This document shows, in pieces, positions 1,655 to 36,825 of a stretch of DNA of 64,000 nt. This stretch comes from an uncultured Clostridia bacterium (GTDB lineage: Bacteria > Bacillota > Clostridia > Oscillospirales > Ruminococcaceae): NCBI GenBank assembly GCA_946567425.1, contig CAMNXF010000005.1:62001-126000 (forward strand). Reading direction: 5' to 3'. How positions within the stretch are numbered: position 1 is the stretch's first letter; each line of letters begins with the position of its first letter. The position numbers and the translations under genes were made by a program. A model generated the notes under the pieces. The model made no database searches. It was not told where the DNA came from and saw nothing but the letters and a program-made list of their open reading frames with translations.

Positions 1655-2186
1655 ATGAAAATAATAGCGATCGGAGCTGTGACAGCAGGCGGGAAAACAA
1701 CAGTTGTAAATGCAATTAAAGATCGGCTGCCAAGAACAGCGTCACTTCACTTTGATGACTACTCATTTGAGGGAGAAGTCGAAGACTTTTCCAAATGGGT
1801 ATCAGAGGGTGCGGATGTTCATGTATGGGACTTATCTCCGTTAAAAGCGGATATTGAAAGAATCATCCGCAGCAGCGAATATGACTATCCTACTGTTGGA
1901 CTATCCATTTGCATACCAACATCAAATGATTAAGGATTATTTGGATTGCTGCATATTTATTGATACACCATTAGACATAGCAATGGCTTGAAGAGTTCTT
2001 AGAGATATGAAAGAGGCTACGGGAGATGAAATTCGTAGTGAGATGGAAACATATCTGAAATGTACAAGAGTTGCTTATGTTCAAATGTCGGAAGATACAA
2101 CTTCTGATTATGATTATGTGATTGACGGTGCAAAGGAACTTGATGAAATTATTAAAGAAGCTATGGAGATTGTTTTAAGATGCTAA
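1655..2186 (+). pseudogene. P-loop (uridine kinase-like) nucleotide kinase, frameshifted
   Basis: Begins well (GGAG binding site; MKIIAIGAVTAGGKTTVVNA with a GxxxxGGKTT P-loop) and runs to 1933. There a frameshift falls near CTACTGTTGGAC, because the downstream frame continues the protein: YPFAYQHQMIKDYLDCCIFIDTPLDIAMA. An in-frame TGA then interrupts before RVLRDMKEATGDEIRSEMETYL and the end at 2186. Two lesions make it a pseudogene. The family phosphorylates small nucleosides or related substrates. Confidence 0.75.
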
Positions 2187-8224: not shown

Positions 8225-8299
8225 GCTCAGATAACTCAAAAGGTAGAGCAGCAGTTTTACTCATCTGCGGGGATGTTGATTCGAATTCAACTCTGAGCC
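8225..8299 (+). tRNA. tRNA-like sequence with enlarged anticodon loop (probable tRNA relic)
   Basis: Perfect 7-pair acceptor stem GCTCAGA (8225-8231) with TCTGAGC (8292-8298). T-arm GTTGA/TCAAC (5 pairs) encloses TTCGAAT. The D-arm keeps CTC/GAG and GGTA. The anticodon arm is GCAG (8251-8254) with CTGC (8265-8268) enclosing ten bases, one more than the usual length, so the loop is 8 bases if T8255 and T8264 are counted as a mismatched fifth pair. No encoded CCA, and the anticodon cannot be assigned safely. Either a degraded tRNA or one with an expanded loop. Confidence 0.55.
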
Positions 8300-8345: not shown

Positions 8346-8469
8346 CCCTTGGTCGTTAGGGAAAACGACCGCCAACCTCAAATTGAGAGTTAACTTTCAA
8401 AGGCGTAAAATAACGGACGTAAGGCTCAAAAAGTATTAGTGGGGGAAGCTCACGGAAAGTAGGTGTTTT
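8346..8469 (+). promoter_or_regulatory. Divergent, isolated copy of the inovirus leader RNA (copy L0)
   Basis: The end of the element, TCAAAAAGTATTAGTGGG through CTCACGGAAAGTAGG and TATG, closely follows the leaders at 12042, 13141 and 14035. GTGGG/CTCAC keeps the last hairpin, including its G-U pair, with a different loop. Upstream, CCCT (8346-8349) with AGGG (8358-8361) interleaves with GGTCGTT (8351-8357) and AACGACC (8364-8370), a possible pseudoknot. It precedes only a 26-codon ORF. It lies 3 kb outside the intact phage and so suggests a second, decayed inovirus. Confidence 0.65.
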
Positions 8470-9252: not shown

Positions 9253-9519
9253 TTATTTGTCATCATAATGTCCTTTACATTGAATTATTTCAATTCTATC
9301 CTCGACAATTCTGTAAACGATCCTGTTGGTGTCGTCTATCCGTCTGCTCCAGAAGCCTTTAAGGTTTTCTTTAAGCGGTTCCGGCTTGGCAATACCGTCA
9401 TAACCGTTTCTAATAATGTCCTGCAGTATTAAATTTATCCTCTTAAGTGTCTTTTTATCTTGAGATTGCCAGTAAATATAATCTTGCCAAGCTCTTTCTG
9501 AGAAAACAATGTTACTCAT
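9253..9519 (-). CDS. yoeB: YoeB/Txe-family mRNA interferase toxin
   Basis: 88 residues. SERAWQDYIYWQSQDKKTLKRIN, KPEPLKENLKGFWSRRIDDTNRIVYRI and a C-terminal QCKGHYDDK are the hallmarks of YoeB. The conserved Glu, Arg and the C-terminal His-Tyr of this RelE-superfamily, ribosome-dependent RNase are present. Overlaps the antitoxin gene by 8 bases. It sits downstream of the inovirus minus-strand cluster and could stabilise the provirus, which is inference. Confidence 0.92.
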   Translation of the reverse strand: MSNIVFSERAWQDYIYWQSQDKKTLKRINLILQDIIRNGYDGIAKPEPLKENLKGFWSRRIDDTNRIVYRIVEDRIEIIQCKGHYDDK

Positions 9520-9784
9520 CTGTCATTCCCTCTAATTCGTCAATGGACTTGATAACGACCTTTCCGCTTTTAAGCTGATCAAGACTTTCCGACAAGGCTT
9601 TCAGATTGCTGTCTGTGTAGAACGGGTCAACGGAAACATCAAAGGGAATACGTTTTTCACGGCTCATCTTCTTAGCAAAGATCGTGATCGCGGTCGTCAT
9701 ACTCATTCCAAGCTCGTTGCACACATTGTCGAAGTCGCGCTTGAGTTCTTCGTCCATTCTGATATTAACTAATGCTTGTGCCAT
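9512..9784 (-). CDS. RelB/DinJ-family antitoxin
   Basis: 90 residues from the ATG at 9784, which has AAAGGAGG 8 bases upstream; the GTG three codons earlier lies inside that binding site and was rejected. The ribbon-helix-helix N-terminus ALVNIRMDEELKRDFDNVCNELGMSMTTAITIF is typical of DinJ. The acidic tail wraps the toxin in this family. The complex normally represses its own promoter. Confidence 0.9.
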   Translation of the reverse strand: MAQALVNIRMDEELKRDFDNVCNELGMSMTTAITIFAKKMSREKRIPFDVSVDPFYTDSNLKALSESLDQLKSGKVVIKSIDELEGMTDE

Positions 9785-9856
9785 TTTATGCACCTCCTTT
9801 AGTATATTATATCACATTGTGTATATTTTGTCAACACATTGTATTTGTTCAAGTAA

Positions 9857-10721: not shown

Positions 10722-10940
10722 TTACCAAAATTTTCTTTTATCGTTTGTCAATCCAGCTAGATAATCAAGAGAAACATTGTAGTATTTTGCTAGTTTTATA
10801 AACAAATGCATAGGAAGTTCTCGATCTCCTCTTTCGTATTTACTGTAATGCGTTTGAAATGTTTCAAGTATTTCTGCAACTTGTTGTTGATTTAAATCTT
10901 TATCTTCTCTGCAGTCTCTTAGTCTTTGGTAATAATACAT
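10722..10940 (-). CDS. XRE-family phage repressor
   Basis: 72 residues, a minimal Cro/CI helix-turn-helix: LNQQQVAEILETFQTHYSKYERGDRELPMHLFIKLAKYYNVSLDYLAGL. It is transcribed away from the phage operon and sits 60 bases from two copies of a palindromic operator that overlap the rightward promoter, so it probably maintains lysogeny by shutting that promoter. The decayed XRE gene at 7606 holds the same position relative to the lone leader copy. Confidence 0.85.
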   Translation of the reverse strand: MYYYQRLRDCREDKDLNQQQVAEILETFQTHYSKYERGDRELPMHLFIKLAKYYNVSLDYLAGLTNDKRKFW

Positions 10941-10983
10941 AATTTTTCCTTTCCTTTTTGTTTATTGTGCTGATTTTATCATA

Positions 10984-11028
10984 AATACGTTTGTATCTAT
11001 TGACTTTAGATACGTTTGTATCTATTAT
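10984..11028 (+). promoter_or_regulatory. Rightward phage promoter with two overlapping operators
   Basis: TTGACT (11000-11005), 17-base spacer, TATTAT (11023-11028). Operator copy 2 is the palindrome AGATAC GTTT GTATCT at 11008-11023, filling the spacer; copy 1 (AATACGTTTGTATCT) lies at about 10984-10998, 23 bases upstream. The arrangement fits cooperative repressor binding that blocks RNA polymerase. Confidence 0.75.
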
Positions 11029-11076
11029 ACACTTTTTGTCTTTGCGAGAAAAAACTCCCCATATAGGGTGTGGTCA

Positions 11077-11165
11077 AGCCGTTTGGTCGTTGCGGCTTTA
11101 AACTAACGACTACCAGCCCGAGAGGGCAAAAAAATCCCCGACCCAGTAGGGCAGGGGAAAGGATC
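11077..11165 (+). promoter_or_regulatory. Leader-type structured RNA, divergent class (copy R1)
   Basis: AGCCG (11077-11081) with CGGCT (11093-11097), interleaved with GTCGTT (11086-11091) and AACGAC (11105-11110): an H-type pseudoknot. Then GCCC-GAGA-GGGC (11116-11127, a GNRA tetraloop), an A-rich linker, and CCCC...GGGG (11136-11157), followed by AAAGG. Same order of parts as the L leaders but with different stem sequences. It lies about 50 bases inside the transcript from the promoter at 11000 and has no gene immediately after it on this strand. Confidence 0.65.
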
Positions 11166-11170
11166 GGCTG

Positions 11171-11284
11171 TTATCTGCCTTTCAGCTTCCGTTTAATTGC
11201 TTTTACTGTTTCTTCTATGGCAACATAAACGGCAGCAGCATCGAATGCCCATACAATGGCGAGTATTTTGTGATAGTTCATCAT
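11171..11284 (-). CDS. Possible 37-residue membrane peptide
   Basis: ORF MMNYHKILAIVWAFDAAAVY followed by VAIEETVKAIKRKLKGR: one hydrophobic segment and a basic tail, like inovirus minor coat proteins. It is on the minus strand between the two R leader copies. The ribosome binding site is poor (CGGAG far upstream). May be spurious. Confidence 0.3.
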   Translation of the reverse strand: MMNYHKILAIVWAFDAAAVYVAIEETVKAIKRKLKGR

Positions 11285-11319
11285 TAGGTAAAAAGATACT
11301 CCGATGTACGGCAAGTTCA

Positions 11320-11379
11320 AGCCGTTTGGTCGTTGCGGCTCTAAACTAACGACTACCACCAGTAGGGCAGGGGAGAAAG
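11320..11379 (+). promoter_or_regulatory. Leader-type structured RNA, divergent class (copy R2)
   Basis: Repeats R1 over about 40 bases. AGCCG (11320-11324)/CGGCT (11336-11340) interleaves with GTCGTT (11329-11334)/AACGAC (11348-11353). It lacks the GAGA hairpin but keeps CCAGTAGGGCAGGGGA and AAAG. It is followed at 11411 by leader L1. Confidence 0.6.
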
Positions 11380-11410
11380 CGGCATTATCTAGGCATTGTT
11401 TTTCTTTAAC

Positions 11411-11506
11411 GTCCGTTAGCGGTTCGGACGAAAAACCAACCGCTACAAGCCCTTAGGGGTCAAAAAATAAAACAGTGGCTTCGGTCACGGAAAGAAGGTA
11501 CTTAAA
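11411..11506 (+). promoter_or_regulatory. Inovirus leader RNA copy L1
   Basis: GTCCG (11411-11415) pairs with CGGAC (11425-11429). GCGGTT (11419-11424), in the loop of that stem, pairs with AACCGC (11438-11443): an H-type pseudoknot with loops of 3, 0 and 8 bases, the last A-rich. Then CCC-TTAG-GGG (11450-11459), an A-rich linker, GTGGC-TTCG-GTCAC (11475-11488), GGAAAGAAGGT and the ATG at 11507. No T run follows either hairpin, so it is not a simple terminator. Nearly identical to L2-L4. Confidence 0.8.
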
Positions 11507-11737
11507 ATGCGTGCACCAATGAATTTAAATTTTAATGCTACGACATCAGATTTATTGTTTCTTGTTAAGGCAATGGAATCGGCGCATAGATCGGCTCTAT
11601 CTTTAGGTGGTTGTTATTTTAGTAAAGATAAAGTTGAACCTGTGTTTAATGTATTAATCATTGTTGATTCTGAGGGCAGTTCTACGGTAGGAGTTCGAAT
11701 TTTGGATAATGACGTTGAGGAGAGCGGAACGCGATGA
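11507..11737 (+). CDS. Phage early protein, unknown
   Basis: 76 residues, MRAPMNLNFNATTSDLLFLV onward; no signal peptide, one Cys, acidic end. First gene behind a leader copy; its 3' end overlaps the next gene by 4 bases. No family recognised. Confidence 0.6.
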   Translation: MRAPMNLNFNATTSDLLFLVKAMESAHRSALSLGGCYFSKDKVEPVFNVLIIVDSEGSSTVGVRILDNDVEESGTR

Positions 11738-12039
11738 ACGATTACGGCAAATTAGGTATATCGACTTTTGCCCCAAATTTATTTGCGATGTTTATTCTGT
11801 TATCAATTCTTCCGTTTTATGAAGCCAACGGCAGTTTACCGGTTGAGGGTATGACAGATCTTCAGATATCGGAGATTGTATTCTGGGCTGGTTTTTTTGC
11901 ATTTATTCTTGGCTCTTTTTACGCTTTATCTTATATTATATCATTCGTTGGTCATTATCTTGTTTATTTCGTTCAACGTTACTGGTACTTGCGAAAGCTG
12001 CGCAAGCCGGAGCGAATATATACCGGAGACCCCCTGTGA
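11734..12039 (+). CDS. Phage two-span membrane protein
   Basis: 101 residues. Hydrophobic segments at about 11-30 (FAPNLFAMFILLSILPF) and 46-85 (IVFWAGFFAFILGSFYALSYIISFVGHY), then a basic tail (RYWYLRKLRKPERIY). Overlaps the preceding gene (GATGA). The basic C-terminus after a membrane span recalls inovirus assembly or minor coat proteins, but the early position argues against a firm role. Confidence 0.6.
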   Translation: MNDYGKLGISTFAPNLFAMFILLSILPFYEANGSLPVEGMTDLQISEIVFWAGFFAFILGSFYALSYIISFVGHYLVYFVQRYWYLRKLRKPERIYTGDPL

Positions 12040-12041
12040 AC

Positions 12042-12135
12042 GTCCGTTAGCGGTTCGGACGAAAAACCAACCGCCGCCAACCCTTCGGGGCAGAAAAATA
12101 AAAAAGTGGCTTCGGTCACGGAAAGTAGGTATTTT
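12042..12135 (+). promoter_or_regulatory. Inovirus leader RNA copy L2
   Basis: Same pseudoknot as L1 (GTCCG/CGGAC with GCGGTT/AACCGC). The middle hairpin is CCC-TTCG-GGG where other copies have CCC-TTAG-GGG, so the change is confined to the tetraloop. Ends GTGGCTTCGGTCACGGAAAG then TAGGTATTTT and the ATG at 12136. Confidence 0.8.
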
Positions 12136-12348
12136 ATGGAAAAAACGGTTCAATTATCTTTAACGCTTGAACAGCTTCAAACGGTTCACCGCTTAGTTTC
12201 CAATAAAATTGATTTTTACAGAGATGTTTTATCTCGTTGTAAAAATGAAAATCGTAAAAAGTTTTATTTGGAAATTCTATCGGAATGTGTTCATATTCGA
12301 GAGAACATTGTAGAATCTCTGAAAGGTGGTGAAGCAGATGAAAAGTGA
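12136..12348 (+). CDS. Phage early protein, unknown, helical
   Basis: 70 residues from the ATG placed as in the other leaders. A GTG 30 bases upstream inside the UUCG hairpin is in frame but was rejected, because that frame is not kept behind L1 or L4. Mostly helical and charged (LEQLQTVHRLVSNKIDFYRD). Overlaps the next gene by 11 bases. No family recognised. Confidence 0.6.
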   Translation: MEKTVQLSLTLEQLQTVHRLVSNKIDFYRDVLSRCKNENRKKFYLEILSECVHIRENIVESLKGGEADEK

Positions 12349-12499
12349 GTATTTCCTTTTGCTCGGTGCGGCAGTTGCCTATTTTTTCGGTCGTTTTATT
12401 ATGCGTGGTCTGCTTAAACGCCGACACACGGGCGGCAGCTTCCGCGAGCTTTACAGAGACAACGCCGAAGCTCTGAAAGGCGGTGATGAAGATGAATAA
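12338..12499 (+). CDS. Phage small membrane protein (53 residues)
   Basis: MKSEYFLLLGAAVAYFFGRF followed by IMRGLLKRRHTGGSFRELYRD: one membrane segment then a basic, then acidic, tail. GAAAGGTGGTGAAGC precedes the ATG. The same GAAAGGCGGTGA motif ends this gene and leads into the next. Confidence 0.6.
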   Translation: MKSEYFLLLGAAVAYFFGRFIMRGLLKRRHTGGSFRELYRDNAEALKGGDEDE

Positions 12500-12779
12500 A
12501 TTTATAAATCTCACGCTTGAGGGTATGAATTGCAAGCAGCTTGCCATTCTTCAAGCTGCTATAAAACTTGCTGGAGACAATTTTACTACATACGGAGATT
12601 TTTTTAAAAATCTTGACAATAAGCTTACAAATGTAGATGAATTTATTTTTGAGTATAATCATTGTACTAACTTTAATCTTTCTATAGATTTTCGTCAGTT
12701 TTCCGTTGGTGGTCCGTTTGATTGCGATCCTGTTGACGATCCCGATTTTCTTAAAGGCGGTGACAAGGAATGCGAGTAA
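12492..12779 (+). CDS. Phage early protein, unknown
   Basis: 95 residues from the ATG at 12492 (AAAGGCGGTGATGAAG upstream). Contains LEGMNCKQLAILQAAIKLAG and an acidic C-terminus with FDCDPVDDPDFLKGGDKECE. Its frame overlaps the previous stop and the next start. No family recognised. Confidence 0.55.
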   Translation: MNKFINLTLEGMNCKQLAILQAAIKLAGDNFTTYGDFFKNLDNKLTNVDEFIFEYNHCTNFNLSIDFRQFSVGGPFDCDPVDDPDFLKGGDKECE

Positions 12780-13135
12780 TTCTGAAACGCCCGGGAGAGG
12801 TTGCCACTGTGGGCGATCTCGCCGACTATGAGGCAATGCGTGAATACATAGAGGGTCATTTTGAAACCGTTCCGCTCCTCGCACCGGACTACTGTAAATA
12901 TCTTATCGTGTGTAACGATAATTTCCTTTATAACGGCAGCGAGTTCAATTTGTTTCTTGGCGGCGTGGAGTTCTACGGCAATATATTCATCTGCAATGTC
13001 GGCAAGGTAAAGGGCGAAATGGACTTTGTAGGGCTTGATTGCCCGGATATACTCAGCATAGCGCGCAATCTGTGTTGGTCTGAGAGTGATAAACGGTCGC
13101 TTATGGTTCACGCCCTCGCGGTCAATTCTCTTTAA
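12770..13135 (+). CDS. DUF3846-like phage protein
   Basis: 121 residues. MRVILKRPGEVATVGDLADYEAMREYIEG, then FLGGVEFYGNIFICNVGKVKGEMDFVGL: the order of a short N-terminal strand, a residue block ending in GG-type turns and a final Gly-Asp/Glu-hydrophobic stretch resembles DUF3846 proteins common in Firmicutes mobile DNA. Function of that family unknown. Last gene of the L2 cassette. Confidence 0.55.
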   Translation: MRVILKRPGEVATVGDLADYEAMREYIEGHFETVPLLAPDYCKYLIVCNDNFLYNGSEFNLFLGGVEFYGNIFICNVGKVKGEMDFVGLDCPDILSIARNLCWSESDKRSLMVHALAVNSL

Positions 13136-13140
13136 ATTCA

Positions 13141-13234
13141 GTCCGTTAGCGGTTCGGACGATAAACCAACCGCCACAAGCCCTTAGGGGTCAAAAAATAA
13201 AACAGTGGCTTCGGTCACGGAAAGCAGGTTAGAT
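13141..13234 (+). promoter_or_regulatory. Inovirus leader RNA copy L3
   Basis: Almost base-for-base the same as L1 and L4. Pseudoknot GTCCG/CGGAC with GCGGTT/AACCGC, loop GATAAACC, CCC-TTAG-GGG, A-rich linker, GTGGC-TTCG-GTCAC, GGAAAGCAGGT, ATG at 13235. Confidence 0.8.
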
Positions 13235-14029
13235 ATGTTCAATAAAACGGAAATCGTTCCGAAACGTTCGGATACAATGACATACTTTGAAGCTGCATTT
13301 GCTTCAATCAAATCCGATCTTTGCGATATAGCGGATACTTATCTTTGCATAGCTTATAAGGTTCATGAAATAGACGTGCGTATCCGTAAGGACGGCAAAA
13401 AGTGCAAGTACAAGAACATTGTCGAAGCCTGTGAAACCGAGCTTGGTTTTAAGAAGTCCACTACTTACAATATGCTTAATATCGTTAAGACTTACGGTGT
13501 TGACGATAAAGGCAGAATTTCTTATCAGCAGCTTTGCACATATTCTCATTATTCATATAGTCAGCTTGTGGAAATGCTGTCGCTCGGATCTGCTCAACGT
13601 TCCGAAATCAAACCCGATACGTCCGTATCCGCTATCCGTATGTTGAAGAAGTCCAACGAAAAGGACGAGCCGAAAACTTTCCAGACGTCTGGAAAATCTG
13701 ACACATCTGTTGAGAAAACAGAAACTTTCCGAACGTTCGGAAACTCCGATCACGTTTATGAGATCAAGAGCTTTTTCGAGGACGGCGAGTTGTTCATCGA
13801 GGTTGATGATGAATTTACCGAAGAGGTAGATGTGTTTACTGATGATTTGTGCGACTTTTATTCTGCACTTGGTACAGCTTCGTCTCAACACTATTTGACA
13901 GGTGCTGACTTTGAAAGTTTTCCTCCCGATAAGCTCGAGGAGCGCTTTAAAACCATTATGGCGGTTTACAGACAAGCATATAACAGCTATTACAATCAGC
14001 TTGAGCGTGAAAATAAATCCGCTGTATGA
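13235..14029 (+). CDS. Mobile-element regulatory or replication protein, unknown
   Basis: 264 residues from the ATG at 13235. The N-terminal 130 residues (IADTYLCIAYKVHEIDVRIR, YKNIVEACETELGFKKSTTYNMLNI, YSYSQLVEMLSLG, KPDTSVSAIRMLKKS) match a helix-turn-helix-like domain seen in Firmicutes ICE and plasmid proteins. The middle is low-complexity with repeated KTFQTSG/ETFRTFG, and the C-terminus is acidic. Sole gene of its leader cassette; likely DNA-binding. Confidence 0.6.
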   Translation: MFNKTEIVPKRSDTMTYFEAAFASIKSDLCDIADTYLCIAYKVHEIDVRIRKDGKKCKYKNIVEACETELGFKKSTTYNMLNIVKTYGVDDKGRISYQQLCTYSHYSYSQLVEMLSLGSAQRSEIKPDTSVSAIRMLKKSNEKDEPKTFQTSGKSDTSVEKTETFRTFGNSDHVYEIKSFFEDGELFIEVDDEFTEEVDVFTDDLCDFYSALGTASSQHYLTGADFESFPPDKLEERFKTIMAVYRQAYNSYYNQLERENKSAV

Positions 14030-14034
14030 TAATA

Positions 14035-14128
14035 GTCCGTTAGCGGTTCGGACGATAAACCAACCGCTACAAGCCCTTAGGGGTCAAAAAATAAAACAGT
14101 GGCTTCGGTCACGGAAAGCAGGTAAAAA
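14035..14128 (+). promoter_or_regulatory. Inovirus leader RNA copy L4
   Basis: Same structure as L1 and L3, ending GGAAAGCAGGTAAAAA and the ATG at 14129. It begins 5 bases after the previous stop codon and leads the whole structural and replication block. Confidence 0.8.
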
Positions 14129-14425
14129 ATGGCTACAAAGTACCAAGTAATCAACGTAAAAGAGAGTAAAGGCAATATAGAGGGCAATCCGTTCGACAAT
14201 CGAATGATCCTTTGCTATTCCACGGAAAGCAGTAAATACCTTGTATGCGGCGAGTACACCGAAAATCTGAAAATGAAAACGAACGATTTTAATTACGCAG
14301 TCCGCCACCACGGCTACGATCTGAGCGATCTCCCCGGGAAGATCATCAGCCCCGTTTTCGGTCGTAACGACTACATCACGGATTTCACGCTCTCCGATCC
14401 CGAGTCGGGCGAGGTGGTGGAGTAA
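14129..14425 (+). CDS. Putative phage ssDNA-binding protein (by synteny)
   Basis: 98 residues, soluble, mixed beta-like composition (MATKYQVINVKESKGNIEGN; KYLVCGEYTENLKMKTNDF). No family recognised. Size (M13 pV is 87 residues) and place, directly before two tiny membrane proteins and the coat gene, match M13 gene V. If so it would coat single-stranded phage DNA and might bind the leader RNAs; both points are inference. Confidence 0.45.
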   Translation: MATKYQVINVKESKGNIEGNPFDNRMILCYSTESSKYLVCGEYTENLKMKTNDFNYAVRHHGYDLSDLPGKIISPVFGRNDYITDFTLSDPESGEVVE

Positions 14426-14523
14426 TGCTTGGATTTCTTCAAGTATTGTGTATCATAGCGATCGTTTGTTTTATCGGCTCGGTCATATTCGGCATTGTCT
14501 TCAAAGGTCGCGGAGGTAAGTAA
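14425..14523 (+). CDS. pVII/pIX-like minor coat protein (32 residues)
   Basis: MLGFLQVLCIIAIVCFIGSV then IFGIVFKGRGGK: a single membrane segment with a basic tail, the size of M13 pVII and pIX (33 and 32). GAGGTGGTGGAG precedes the ATG. Overlaps the preceding and following genes by one base each (TAATG). Confidence 0.65.
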   Translation: MLGFLQVLCIIAIVCFIGSVIFGIVFKGRGGK

Positions 14524-14789
14524 TGAGTATAACAGATATGGCGTGTTACATAACGGTCGGCGAAGCTGCCGAGGATATGCGCAGCTTTGAGGAGCTGGAG
14601 CAGGCAATGTATCAATCTTTTAATGATCTGGCGGACGGTTTCTTCTCCAACGTTGCTGAGAACATAACCGAAACGCTTCGGCTCGCCGCTGAAAATCCGT
14701 TGTGTATAGCGTTTGTGTCCTGTCTGTTCGTTGTTCTTGCGTTTCATCTTGTACCCTCGTTTATCGGGATATTCAGGGGGAGGGGGTGA
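14523..14789 (+). CDS. Inovirus coat-like membrane protein (88 residues)
   Basis: Acidic, helical N-terminus (residues 1-60, EAAEDMRSFEELEQAMYQSF), one membrane span (PLCIAFVSCLFVVLAFHLVP, about 60-79), then FIGIFRGRG. This acidic-span-basic layout is that of filamentous phage coat proteins. It could be a minor or the major coat protein. Confidence 0.65.
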   Translation: MSITDMACYITVGEAAEDMRSFEELEQAMYQSFNDLADGFFSNVAENITETLRLAAENPLCIAFVSCLFVVLAFHLVPSFIGIFRGRG

Positions 14790-17847: not shown

Positions 17848-17969
17848 TGTTTGTTCATCTGGAGAATTTGCGCGATCTGCTGTTCTGGTCGTCGGGCTGG
17901 CTGCCGTTCGTGCTGTTTCTGTACATTCTCGACGGTATTATGCGCTTGTTCAGAAAGGACGGTAAGTAA
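17847..17969 (+). CDS. Phage small membrane protein (40 residues)
   Basis: MFVHLENLRDLLFWSSGWLP then FVLFLYILDGIMRLFRKDGK: single span and basic tail, the standard inovirus minor coat pattern. Starts and ends in TAATG overlaps. Preceded by TAGGGGGTAAGC. Confidence 0.6.
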   Translation: MFVHLENLRDLLFWSSGWLPFVLFLYILDGIMRLFRKDGK

Positions 17970-18781
17970 TGTTAAGACCTATCTTTTGCGCGTTGAAATG
18001 CGCTACGTTGTTCTGGTTCTATGTCTTTAAAGACCTCGCCAAATACATACAGCGTAAAGGCTGGCACGACTTCAATTATTGGGGGCTGCATTTGTTCCAA
18101 GGCAAGTTCGGCAGCGGTAAAACTATCTCAATGGTTCGCCGTGCTTATAACATCTGCAAAACACATCACGGCGTAACTATTCTTACAAACCTTACTCTTA
18201 CGGGCTTTCCAAAGGACACAAAGATCATTAAGCTCGTCAATTCCGAGCAGATCAGAGAGCTCCCGGATAAGTCTATCGTGCTTATAGACGAGATCGGCAC
18301 GATCTTCAATTCCCGTGATTTCGCAAGCTCTAAGAAGTCCGTGCCTAAGCCAGTATATCAAGTGATATTGCAGTGCCGACACCGCCGTGTAATGCTCTTG
18401 GGCAGTGTTCAGCGCTGGAATTTGCTTGATAAGCAGCTCCGCGATATAGCCGACAGCGTGACCGAGTGCCACAGCTTCTTCGGCGATCCGTTCAGCAGAT
18501 ACACGACGTGCGCAGAGTACGACGCGCAGCAGTATGATAAATGGTTCACTAATCCGCTGTTGCCTATACGCCAGATCGGCTATTACGGATATGTCCAGAC
18601 GGACGAGCTGCGGAGCAAATATGATACTATGGAAATGGTCGAAGGTATGCTCGACGCAGAATATATTCCGGACAGTGAGATCCTCGCCAACCGAGCCGGA
18701 GCGGACTTTAATCCCGATCCCGTCCTCGGCACGGATAAAAAGGGTAAAAAAGCTATGGGAAAGGTGGTTCGTAAGCTGTGA
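17969..18781 (+). CDS. Zot/pI-family phage assembly ATPase
   Basis: 270 residues. P-loop GKFGSGKT near residue 50, Walker B SIVLIDEIGTIF near 105, and QCRHRRVMLLGSVQRW, all diagnostic of Zot-domain (M13 gpI) proteins. gpI powers extrusion of the filament through the cell envelope. There is a hydrophobic stretch near residues 10-22 but no obvious span at the C-terminus, so membrane topology differs from M13 gpI. Its TGA overlaps the GTG of the next gene. Confidence 0.9.
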   Translation: MLRPIFCALKCATLFWFYVFKDLAKYIQRKGWHDFNYWGLHLFQGKFGSGKTISMVRRAYNICKTHHGVTILTNLTLTGFPKDTKIIKLVNSEQIRELPDKSIVLIDEIGTIFNSRDFASSKKSVPKPVYQVILQCRHRRVMLLGSVQRWNLLDKQLRDIADSVTECHSFFGDPFSRYTTCAEYDAQQYDKWFTNPLLPIRQIGYYGYVQTDELRSKYDTMEMVEGMLDAEYIPDSEILANRAGADFNPDPVLGTDKKGKKAMGKVVRKL

Positions 18782-20106
18782 TAACCTGTAAAGTAAGCGA
18801 CTATTTGACAATATCGCTTTTGCCCGGAGACGTAGATATAACAGTCGACGCTCTTCTCCAAAAGGGGCTTGAAGCGCTTTATCTTGACGAGCTTTGGGCA
18901 AAGGAGCTTTTTGTCTGTAAGTGTCAAAGTCAGTATTTTTCCGCGATATACCGTTTCGGAGATATTCAAATCAAGCTGCCCTACGATCATAATTATAAGC
19001 GTAACGGCATTTGTTTTGAGTTCTCGGGTCAAGGCTTGGATTATTATAGGGAATTTCTTCGGCGTGACCGCATAGGCGTTGATTTGCGCAACGTCTCCGC
19101 ACGTTTTGTTGCTTTGACAAAAGTCGGTTTCAAGACCACATCAAGCCGTTTTGATGTTGCTTTCGACGAGATCATCAAGAAGGGCGAGCTTGTAGAACCT
19201 TGCCTTGATCTGGATCGGATCACTGAGACACTCGGTCGGCGCGCTTTTGTTTCAAAGTTCCGTAAGTCTGACGGTGTTCCCGGCAGCGGCGAGATCAAGC
19301 CGTTTTTCAATGAGCTTGACAAATCACAGAAGTTTGATGAAGCATTACCGTACAGGTTCATCACGTCGACCGACTTGTGTACGGGTCTTGTCGGTAAGAC
19401 TATCGAGCTCGGCAAGCGTAAAGGAAACAGCTTTGTCCGCTTTTATGATAAGCTGGTCGAGCAGTCTGCAAAGGGCTTTGAAGTGCCCGAGAATTACGTC
19501 TCTTGGGTTCGTTTTGAAATGGAGTTCAAGAAAACCAACGCTTCATCTGTCTTTCTACTGTACGCAATGTCTAAGGACGATAAGGAGTTTGTACGGAAAA
19601 TGCGCGGCGAAGCATACAATCTTATCCGCTTTGTAGATCTGGATCACAGCCGCCGCTATAATTGCAGTGTGTGTAAATGGTGGCTTGACTTTCTGGATCA
19701 CGCTGCCGTGTACGTTCTTCCTGTAAACCGTCCTAAGTATAATAAGTACGTCCGCGCTCTGGCAGCCCAGAAACGTCAGAACGCTTCAAGCCTTTCAACG
19801 TTGGTTATGTGCCGCCCCGGTAATCTTAAGTCCATACTTCTTGAGGGAGCCAAGAAGTCAAGCAAGACTGCCCAAGCCATAGCAGCGGACTTTGAAGCGG
19901 TGCGGTACTTGTCGCCCGAGGAGTTCGATCGGGTGTATGAAGAGAATACAAAGGAGCTCACGGGTCTTGAATATTGGCAACAGTTCCTACACCTTAAAAA
20001 CTCCACTCTTGAGGAGTTTGAAGCGTTCCTTGATAAAGCCTTTGACGATCTTTGTAATAACGTTCTCGGCGCTCTCGGCATTGATAATGTTCAGCACGTA
20101 CACTGA
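18778..20106 (+). CDS. Rolling-circle replication initiator, Rep_trans family
   Basis: 442 residues from the GTG overlapping the Zot stop. KVGFKTTSSRFDVAFDE near 115, then TIELGKRKGNSFVRFYDKLVEQ and WVRFEMEFKK near 200-245, are the conserved blocks of Rep_trans proteins; the YDK tyrosine is a candidate for the DNA-linking residue. It would nick the double-strand origin of the circular phage genome; the nick site is not evident. C-terminal 150 residues are helical with no known domain. Confidence 0.88.
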   Translation: MITCKVSDYLTISLLPGDVDITVDALLQKGLEALYLDELWAKELFVCKCQSQYFSAIYRFGDIQIKLPYDHNYKRNGICFEFSGQGLDYYREFLRRDRIGVDLRNVSARFVALTKVGFKTTSSRFDVAFDEIIKKGELVEPCLDLDRITETLGRRAFVSKFRKSDGVPGSGEIKPFFNELDKSQKFDEALPYRFITSTDLCTGLVGKTIELGKRKGNSFVRFYDKLVEQSAKGFEVPENYVSWVRFEMEFKKTNASSVFLLYAMSKDDKEFVRKMRGEAYNLIRFVDLDHSRRYNCSVCKWWLDFLDHAAVYVLPVNRPKYNKYVRALAAQKRQNASSLSTLVMCRPGNLKSILLEGAKKSSKTAQAIAADFEAVRYLSPEEFDRVYEENTKELTGLEYWQQFLHLKNSTLEEFEAFLDKAFDDLCNNVLGALGIDNVQHVH

Positions 20107-21960: not shown

Positions 21961-23004
21961 ATGAACAAAAAATATTACGATACAGCACCGCAGTCCATAA
22001 AAGATTTCATTTACTATGAGCAGATCGTCAAGGGGCGTTCCGAACTCACGGTAAAAAATTATTACAACGATCTGCGTACATTTTTCAGATTTTATAAAAT
22101 GAGAAACGGACGCGCCACCTCAGTGCCCGAGGATTTCGGAACGATTGACATTTCCGATATTTCGGACGATGACATTAAATCGGTTGATTTGCAGCTAGCA
22201 CAGGAATTTCTCGTGTATATGAAAACCGAGAAAAACAACGAGCAGAAAGCGCGTTACCGAAAAGGAGTTTCACTGCGGCAGTTCTACAAGTTCCTTACAA
22301 ACAACAAGGGTATGTTCGAGGTGAGCCCCATGGCCAATCTGGAATTGCCCACGCCAAAACCCGCGCTGCCGAAGCATCTGACATTTGAACAGGCGCTTGA
22401 AATGCTTACGCACATTGACACGCCCGACCGTAAGCGGGATTATTGTATCGTTGTGTTCTTCCTTAACTGCGGAATGCGTTTAAGCGAGCTTGTGGGCATT
22501 AACATAAAAGATATACGCAGTACTCATGATGCCGACGGAAATGAAATTTACACGTTAAAGGTGCTTGGAAAAGGCAGCAAAGAACGTATCATCTATCTCA
22601 ACAGCGCGTGCGTAAACGCGTATATGGATTATGCTGCGCCTGACGAGACCGATCCCGATATAAGAAAGTCCTCCGGTATGCGCGACAGCACGGTCAAGAC
22701 CGACGCGCTTTTCCTCAGCAGACGCGGAACACGGATATCAAACCGCCGCGTTCAGCAGATCGTCGAGGAATGCTTCAGGAGCTGCGGACTTGCGAATATG
22801 GGCTTTTCGGTTCACAAACTCCGGCACACCGCCGCGACTTTAATGTATCAGAACGGTGTCGACGTTCGGGTTCTGAAAGACGTGCTCGGTCACGAAAATC
22901 TGAACACTACCCAGATATACACTCACGTTTCAGATTCACAGCTTGAAAAAGCGATGAATAAAAACCCGCTCTCAAATGTGAGATTCGAGAATAACAAAAA
23001 CTAA
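21961..23004 (+). CDS. XerC/XerD-like tyrosine recombinase
   Basis: 347 residues. N-terminal SAM-like core-binding domain (YYNDLRTFFRFYKMRNG) and C-terminal catalytic domain with Arg in NCGMRLSEL, KLRHTAATLMYQNG (H-x-x-R), LGHENLNTTQIYTH and the nucleophile Tyr of IYTH. Length and sequence fit host Xer proteins of this bacterial group, which resolve chromosome dimers at dif. Standing next to an inovirus is notable since many inoviruses use host Xer, but no dif-like site was found with confidence; it could also be an element integrase. Confidence 0.85.
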   Translation: MNKKYYDTAPQSIKDFIYYEQIVKGRSELTVKNYYNDLRTFFRFYKMRNGRATSVPEDFGTIDISDISDDDIKSVDLQLAQEFLVYMKTEKNNEQKARYRKGVSLRQFYKFLTNNKGMFEVSPMANLELPTPKPALPKHLTFEQALEMLTHIDTPDRKRDYCIVVFFLNCGMRLSELVGINIKDIRSTHDADGNEIYTLKVLGKGSKERIIYLNSACVNAYMDYAAPDETDPDIRKSSGMRDSTVKTDALFLSRRGTRISNRRVQQIVEECFRSCGLANMGFSVHKLRHTAATLMYQNGVDVRVLKDVLGHENLNTTQIYTHVSDSQLEKAMNKNPLSNVRFENNKN

Positions 23005-36556: not shown

Positions 36557-36667
36557 TACAGTACTCCTTTTCCTCGGGGAAAAAGAAAGCCCTTTTTAAG
36601 GTCGCCGCACAGACAAAACGCTGCCCAAAAACCTCTTAAAGGGGACGCAGAATATAAAATTCTTCTG

Positions 36668-36788
<121 letters not shown>

Positions 36789-36825
36789 ACAGATTAAATT
36801 TTCGTAAGCCTTCACTTACATTTAC

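Follow-up and report, generated by a model that had tools for sequence, protein, structure and literature searches.

Four near-identical leaders, each ahead of a different gene of a filamentous-phage (inovirus) prophage, almost certainly belong, with the anatomy set out below, to a genuine family of RNAs built on an H-type pseudoknot, as judged from pairing and covariation across 36 aligned members. These leaders lie in a 64,000-nucleotide (nt) stretch of contig CAMNXF010000005.1 (positions 62,001 to 126,000) from an uncultured Clostridia bacterium, hereafter the window, whose first letter is position 1. An earlier sequence-only reading had proposed four such copies, each preceding its own ATG, and this description held: four ungapped 98-nt copies (at 11410, 12041, 13140, and 14034) display 85–96% identity to the reference copy, and each leads through an AGGT resembling a Shine-Dalgarno (SD) sequence to an ATG (11507, 12136, 13235, and 14129). 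In an 86-nt comparison, copies 1, 3, and 4 are mutually 97–99% identical, and copy 2 is 87–88% identical to them. All motifs described in that reading were seen as well, i.e., GTCCG/CGGAC interleaved with GCGGTT/AACCGC, CCC-TTNG-GGG, an A-rich linker, and GTGGC-TTCG-GTCAC, as was the reuse of the leader ahead of several genes. In copies 2–4, an upstream stop codon finishes 1–5 nt before the leader. As read from these sequences, the element is a modular leader composed of a 5′ knot, a variable middle part, and a short 3′ hairpin adjoining RGAAAG and the SD sequence.

Pairing and covariation in the knot

That the interleaved strands form a pseudoknot was supported by covariation, the 36 aligned members constituting one H-type family in which both helices covary. 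All rows (36/36) were kept in the final alignment, including L021 2096 with its broken stem 1 (S1); 96.6% of 410 cells are paired, reaching 100% for stem 2 (S2), and the covariation score is 0.527, where shuffles give 0.170 (standard deviation 0.017) and slid controls no more than 0.100. Double-change pairs (8 vs 6.9 in shuffles, with 128/500 reaching 8) and further pair types (20 vs 18.9 in shuffles, with 170/500 reaching 20) are not above shuffles in this alignment, and relatedness by itself can raise the remaining measures of the covariation tool. An earlier 20-member alignment had 93.7% of its cells paired, both-sided changes in 8 of 12 pairs, and a covariation score of 0.482 vs 0.177 in shuffles; its G-U pairs outnumber A-C pairs by 8 to 2, which favors the gene-sense strand, and loops of the types C(UUCG)G, C(UACG)G, and C(UCCG)G favor an RNA.

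The routes of selection favored S1 pairing in some rows and S2 pairing in others: L088 and L091 were found with a pattern in which S2 is fixed, search model R1, in which S1 alone was modeled as pairs, contributed another 11 members from the genus, and the two type C members are weak R1 hits (14.8 and 13.3 bits), retained since their sequence pairs and a gene follows. Neither R1 nor a second model, R2, imposed S2 pairs, yet S2 is fully paired, which counts in favor of the RNA family. Across 43 genomes of the genus, R1 returned 34 hits at E ≤ 0.01 in 14 genomes; 31 of these reach at least 27.1 bits, in 12 genomes, and the other three at most 20.8 bits, with 11 of the 31 strong hits coming from outside the training set. 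Exact type A and type B patterns matched 4 and 6 of the 43 genomes, respectively, and a reversed control pattern gave 0 matches. An H-type descriptor matched 25 places in 114.8 kb (nine sequences), or about 0.22 per kb, where mononucleotide shuffles gave 0.009 per kb. Family members make up 16 of these places and other sequence nine, so that real sequence has a higher background (0.08 per kb) than shuffles.

Within the 5′ module, S1 is mostly 4–7 bp, loop 1 (L1) mostly UUR, S2 6 bp, and loop 3 (L3) short or A-rich, usually followed by NNCCA. S2 takes the forms GCGGTT, GTCGTT, GCGGTC, GTCGTC, GCCGTT, GTGGTT, and GGGGTC, each with the matching partner strand, and includes one G-U pair in the GGGGTC form and one in L044. 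L3 (alignment columns 24–31) is 59% A, and its length correlates with that of S1 (rho 0.46, p 0.004, relatedness ignored). Three further, divergent knots in the window, missed by the sequence-only reading, differ in sequence with their stems compensated (Table 1). Pseudoknot-free folding of the four leaders gave z-scores of −2.61, 0.10, −0.97, and −2.63, with no consistent signal across copies. Separately, a palindrome near TTGAAAGTTAACTTTCAA was noticed by eye after several knots (window 8383–8401, and near L041 4400, L042 4690, L044 12790, and L088 7805).

Other accounts of the conserved sequence were rejected. A frame encoding AVRTxNQP... is open through the type A leaders of the window but, by eye, contains stops in L023, L041, and L042; the variable length of L3 and the covarying stems also speak against a coding explanation. 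A switch pairing UCCG of the 5′ strand of S1 with a pre-SD CGGA appears in 2 of 4 minimum free energy folds, and CGGA is missing in L022, L023, L041, and L042, so that it is not general. A hit in genome G040, a 21-nt match at the shared hairpin, was judged by reading to be due to chance.

The family had not been recognized in the sequence-only reading, and none of the leaders matched Rfam 15 at the gathering threshold, the gathering hits in the window being a flavin mononucleotide (FMN) riboswitch (36662–36795, minus strand, 118 bits) and a tRNA, neither in the leaders. Between 11000 and 14500, six Rfam hits were obtained with E up to 10, the best at 12465–12567 (E 0.4, 25.8 of 80 bits); the single one overlapping a leader (leader 1) is mir-2767 on the minus strand (18 of 69 bits, E 9.1). 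We call the leader family undescribed solely on the basis of Rfam and literature searches, which yielded no earlier description.

Leader modules and probable gene exchange

The 3′ module can be followed beyond the knot. The pattern RGAAAG..AGG..start occurs at 24 sites in 18 sequences, and a hairpin of at least 4 bp adjoins it at 19 of them, compared to 18% of random positions. This terminal hairpin covaries, with stems GTGGC/GTCAC, GCGGC/GTCGC, GTGGG/CTCAC, GCCC/GGGC, GCTCT/AGAGC, TGTCC/GGACA, and CTGC/GCAG, and abuts the SD sequence with or without a knot; UNCG is frequent among the loops of the window and L021 leaders. Genes for predicted proteins resembling single-stranded DNA (ssDNA)-binding proteins (SSB-like) at L043 7568 and L255 about 1755–1790 (minus strand) retain the hairpin-SD module without a knot, so that the two modules are separable. 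By eye, the middle hairpin also keeps its pairing across the forms CCC-UUCG-GGG, GGGC-AAUAAC-GCCC, CGGC-AAUAAC-GCCG, and GAGC-AAUAAC-GCUC.

Between knot and terminal hairpin, two leaders contain possible tRNA-like inserts, which we regard as a lead only: acceptor and T-arm folds can be drawn at L021 3480–3552 and L022 893–945, the latter with TCCA directly after the acceptor. Neither insert was called a tRNA by ARAGORN or the Rfam tRNA model, and their fold z-scores (−0.70 and −1.57) are not significant. Other tRNA or tRNA-like genes near knots include L042 3784–3857 (tRNA-Phe, ARAGORN) and L091 about 8100 (by eye).

The knot coincides with breaks in homology between related phages. The window, L021, and L023 have in common a 101-aa gene (46–62% amino-acid identity) with a knot behind it; DNA similarity between the window and L023 ends 9 nt past this knot, and that between L021 and L023 ends at the knot end. 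Behind the knot stand different genes, of 70, 105, and 158 aa, those of 70 and 105 aa being possibly distant relatives (E 0.009), and similarity between the window and L021 resumes past the tRNA-like insert and continues through the remaining leader. Further along, the 264-aa gene of the window is flanked by two 99% identical leader copies, where L021 carries a single leader and no 264-aa gene. Since homology ends at the knot and the following genes differ, the leader looks like a point of gene exchange.

Genes behind the leaders and phage distribution

The commonest single target of the knots, found behind 11 of 36, is a predicted SSB-like protein with an oligonucleotide/oligosaccharide-binding (OB) fold, belonging to either of two sequence families (98 and 85 aa). 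The structure models of both families confidently display OB topology in the order beta-beta-beta-alpha-beta-beta, and among the PDB neighbors listed, SSB, mtSSB/Rim1, or PriB account for 27/50 and 44/50, respectively. At the limits used, neither family matched a known ssDNA-binding protein in Pfam, PHROGs, or PDB sequences, the 98-aa protein matching phrog_4994, of unknown function. The two families do not align with each other (hhalign of A4 vs the two-sequence A5, probability 0.1%). When the 43 genus genomes were searched starting from the proteins, five genes of the 98-aa family and eight of the 85-aa family were recovered, with a knot in the leader of 10 of these 13; the three without a knot are G061 C2 (L043), G063 (L044, with a transposase-like open reading frame (ORF) upstream), and G018 (L255). 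The sequence-only reading had drawn an analogy with M13 pV binding the gene II leader, and the protein side of this analogy gained support from the OB folds predicted behind copy 4 and behind 10 of 29 aligned copies outside the window. Other genes behind knots are, by position, coat-like, pIII-like, and 101-aa genes.

The prophage encodes an ATPase of the Zot/pI type, a Rep_trans initiator, and an integrase, in support of the proposed inovirus context; the ATPase and the rolling-circle Rep lie in one compact operon, which identifies an inovirus prophage. Relatives of the Zot protein were detected in 13 phage records, six of them named Inovirus and all less than 60% identical. Strong members of the knot family occur in prophages of one genus, on two IMG/VR contigs (L088 and L091), and in an accessory operon beside the L041 and L042 prophages; in this operon, variant knots precede small genes on the opposite strand (L041 978–1014, L042 976–1016, and L042 576–612, all minus). 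An order-level sample (394 genomes, three listed in the genus including the source genome) contained 51 genomes with hits at E 0.05, none above 23.8 bits outside the source genome, which were taken as noise and not inspected singly. In class-level samples of 391 genomes each, the type A pattern had one match beyond the source genome (G620, L200), which failed the check, and R2 passed E 0.001 in six other genomes with at most 29.9 bits, by eye other sequence.

Among viral contigs, the type B pattern matched 37 stretches, of which L088 (two knots) and L091 are convincing, the S1-S2-S1′ pattern gave 0 matches, and the GCGGTTCGGAC pattern matched 18 stretches with no descriptor hit at the matched place. 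A possible third member from outside the genus is L114 5684–5719 (IMG/VR), a type B-like knot with S1 GCAG/CTGC (4 bp) and S2 TGGTCGTT/AACGACCA found by the descriptor scan alone. On genome contigs, the type B pattern matched 57 stretches, and five genus contigs passed a loose check; 13 other loci that passed it, with an S1 of 3–5 bp, were judged to reflect chance. Of seven IMG/VR loci with Zot relatives, one carries knots (L236, identical in contig to L088). In the remaining six, R1 detected none at E 0.5, and R2 with filters off gave nothing convincing (one hit, 8.1 bits, E 0.92). Phage records contained no match to the leader DNA or the 98-aa protein.

Table 1. Knots, hairpins, genes, and other features located in the window
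Feature	Position	Strand	Details
tRNA-like gene just 5′ of the most divergent knot (8346)	8225..8299	+	Rfam tRNA 40.6 bits; acceptor and T arm fold; not called by ARAGORN
Divergent pseudoknot	8346..8370	+	S1 CCCT/AGGG, S2 GGTCGTT/AACGACC; descriptor; R1 31.9 bits; leader extends to terminal hairpin GTGGG/CTCAC, then ATG 8470 of a 26-codon ORF (ORF by eye)
Best promoter-like site, TTGACT-17-TATTAT	11000..11028	+	10/12 matches; upstream of main copies
Type B pseudoknot	11076..11118	+	S1 AAGCCGT/GCGGCTT, S2 GTCGTT/AACGAC; R1 52.7 bits (in training set)
Type B pseudoknot, second copy	11319..11361	+	R1 51.7 bits (in training set)
Type A pseudoknot, leader 1	11411..11443	+	R1 56.6 bits (in training set)
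Terminal hairpin, leader 1	11475..11488	+	GTGGC-TTCG-GTCAC, adjoining GGAAAGAAGGT
76-aa ORF behind leader 1	11507..11737	+	No Pfam or PHROGs match
101-aa ORF upstream of leader 2	11734..12039	+	Conserved in L021, L023
Type A pseudoknot, leader 2	12042..12074	+	R1 58.6 bits (in training set)
Terminal hairpin, leader 2	12106..12119	+	
70-aa ORF behind leader 2	12136..12348	+	
Type A pseudoknot, leader 3	13141..13173	+	R1 54.3 bits (in training set)
Terminal hairpin, leader 3	13205..13218	+	
264-aa ORF behind leader 3	13235..14029	+	DUF3102 under cut-off; phrog_15077, unknown function
Type A pseudoknot, leader 4	14035..14067	+	R1 56.4 bits (in training set)
Terminal hairpin, leader 4	14099..14112	+	
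98-aa protein behind leader 4	14129..14425	+	Predicted OB fold; possibly ssDNA-binding
Zot-family (pI-like) assembly ATPase	17969..18781	+	Pfam PF05707
Rep_trans replication initiator	18778..20106	+	Pfam PF02486
Tyrosine integrase	21961..23004	+	Pfam PF00589

Several neighboring features were noted by eye. Half-palindromes ATACGTTTGTAT are repeated around the promoter-like site (10975–11030) beside a divergent ORF resembling a helix-turn-helix repressor, an arrangement that is likely a lysogeny switch. Small antisense genes lie within the operon with a knot on the opposite strand by their 3′ end (window 11171–11359, minus strand), and similar ones occur at L021 about 2780–2940 and L056 about 9360–9570 (both minus). 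The left flank holds a RelE/RelB-like toxin-antitoxin pair (window 9253–9793, minus strand), also present at L021 about 350–870.

Candidate roles and known systems

The leader quite probably acts in cis, post-transcriptionally, on the cistron behind it. As for how, our first choice, to which we give a probability of roughly 0.37, is by analogy that the knot serves as an operator bound by the phage's own OB-fold ssDNA-binding protein, in the manner of T4 gene 32 and M13 gene V. T4 and RB69 gp32 have pseudoknot operators, and M13 gp5 acts on the gp2 message as a repressor (PMC535899, PMC3014915). These precedents, together with the tie to predicted SSB-like proteins, lead us to prefer autogenous, regulon-wide translational control. 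An OB-fold protein in excess of the ssDNA to be coated would bind the leader knots, and this binding would lower its own synthesis along with that of other phage genes carrying the same leader (coat-like, pIII-like, and accessory). Such a logic would combine that of T4 gp32 (pseudoknot, autogenous) with that of M13 pV (repressing another phage mRNA). On this reading the repeated leaders would double as homology anchors where genes are swapped, which would place incoming genes under the shared control.

Several features of the family weigh against an SSB operator: the distance from knot to start codon varies among members, hairpins lie between the two, and knot type is not linked to protein family. 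Given these features, a structural boundary element fits nearly as well, and we consider it nearly as likely. The stable knot would then cap the 5′ end of a processed cistron against 5′–3′ decay, for which RNase J is the enzyme of Firmicutes, and insulate this cistron from the one upstream, with the hairpin-SD module initiating translation autonomously and no dedicated effector involved. Knot placement is consistent with this alternative: for 25 of 36 knots, the start falls in an interval reaching from 4 nt ahead of an ORF end to 30 nt past it (mechanically called ORFs, minimum 35 codons), compared to 14.6% of random positions. Inspection of the other 11 by eye placed two behind a terminator-like hairpin and its T run (L042 5438 and L057), two about 45 nt past the 3′ end of a tRNA or tRNA-like gene (window 8346 and L091), two downstream of promoter-like sites (window 11076 and L230), and one where its contig ends (L232); the remaining four (window 11319, window 11410, L042 3601, and L088 8690) are without such a neighbor. 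The A-rich L3 and the correlated lengths of S1 and L3 also agree with a boundary, as do the variable start-codon distance and the independence of knot type from protein family. However, proximity to ORF ends is partly due to the compactness of phage genomes, L1, S2, and NNCCA are conserved beyond what a pure roadblock needs, and we know of no simple H-type knots that act as general exonuclease blocks.

The SSB-operator reading may also be extended to a mobile regulon, which we hold to be doubtful. The repeated leaders would be homology anchors for gene exchange as well as autogenous operators, so that a gene arriving behind a copy would join the regulon under the same control, with tRNA-like inserts adding processing. 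If true, this would represent a second, independent origin of pseudoknot-based feedback by an ssDNA-binding protein, as a multi-gene system.

An operator for a different trans factor, whether a host protein (RNA-binding or ribosomal) or a small ligand detected when the phage turns to production, appears clearly unlikely. The conservation of S2 and L1 suggests specific recognition, and the same knot occurs in phages with differing ssDNA-binding-type proteins and on opposite-strand accessory genes, yet in the samples of the order and class that were searched, strong members were seen in the genus only, save for the two IMG/VR contigs, and no examined member precedes a host housekeeping gene.

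Antitermination or polarity suppression on the nascent RNA, offered in the sequence-only reading as another possible function and here meant to allow read-through of the long operon and its antisense genes, is quite improbable and found no specific support. The first main knot begins 48 nt past the −10 hexamer of the best promoter-like site (the scanned region contained 10 promoter-like sites vs 8.0 in shuffles), and by eye knots lie by antisense small genes in the window, L021, L056, and L042. However, a consensus scan of 10900–14600 detected no terminator-like site on the plus strand, which upholds the earlier view that the leaders are not terminators and leaves this rival without an intrinsic terminator on the gene strand; the three sites found are all on the minus strand, vs 4.1 in shuffles. 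In addition, copies are tied to ribosome-binding sites, and two knots stand behind a terminator-like hairpin rather than ahead of it. With a promoter-like site ahead and no gene-strand terminator, the main leaders probably lie inside a single transcript. Finally, that the element folds in the single-stranded phage DNA instead of RNA (for packaging, as a minus-strand origin, or for protein loading) is highly improbable, as despite an ssDNA phage and gene-sense orientation of the examined inovirus-operon copies, loops are UNCG, a hairpin adjoins the SD sequence, and the window's main phage has six copies, four before different genes, with three more on the opposite strand in the accessory operon.

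Should an effector be confirmed for the preferred SSB operator, these leaders would provide an independent case of pseudoknot-based SSB feedback, ahead of predicted SSB-like genes in unrelated phages, and to our knowledge the first with so many reuses within a single small genome. The family makes gene control in the little-studied filamentous phages of Clostridia testable through simple reporters, and it suggests a route by which such phages acquire genes yet keep them controlled.

The closest parallel is gene 32 of T4, T2, and RB69, which likewise has an H-type pseudoknot tens of nt 5′ of the start of a gene for an ssDNA-binding protein (here one predicted to be SSB-like), the structure being retained as the sequence drifts (PMC535899, PMC3014915). 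Unlike gene 32, the leader described here, a candidate operator, is reused before many genes, in filamentous phages of Clostridia hosts, and carries hairpins, one adjoining the SD sequence, in place of the less structured UUAAA tract; the contiguous A/U-rich UUAAA/UAAA tract that runs from knot to ribosome-binding site in gene 32 was not found, as hairpins lie between. The M13/Ff gene V system shares the inovirus setting, an OB-fold protein (predicted here), and a leader element common to several phage genes, although we know of no repeated pseudoknot family among gene V targets. Compact leader pseudoknots are also represented in Rfam by preQ1, SAM-II, EAR, and ribosomal protein leaders, which the present leaders resemble in compactness, without a match at gathering threshold. 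Viral exonuclease-resistant RNAs, which are pseudoknot-based, would share a knot at a proposed 5′ boundary, but no ring-forming three-way junction is seen here. Overall, leader pseudoknots presumed to exert control are of a known kind, and what appears new is its repeated, exchange-linked use in filamentous phages.

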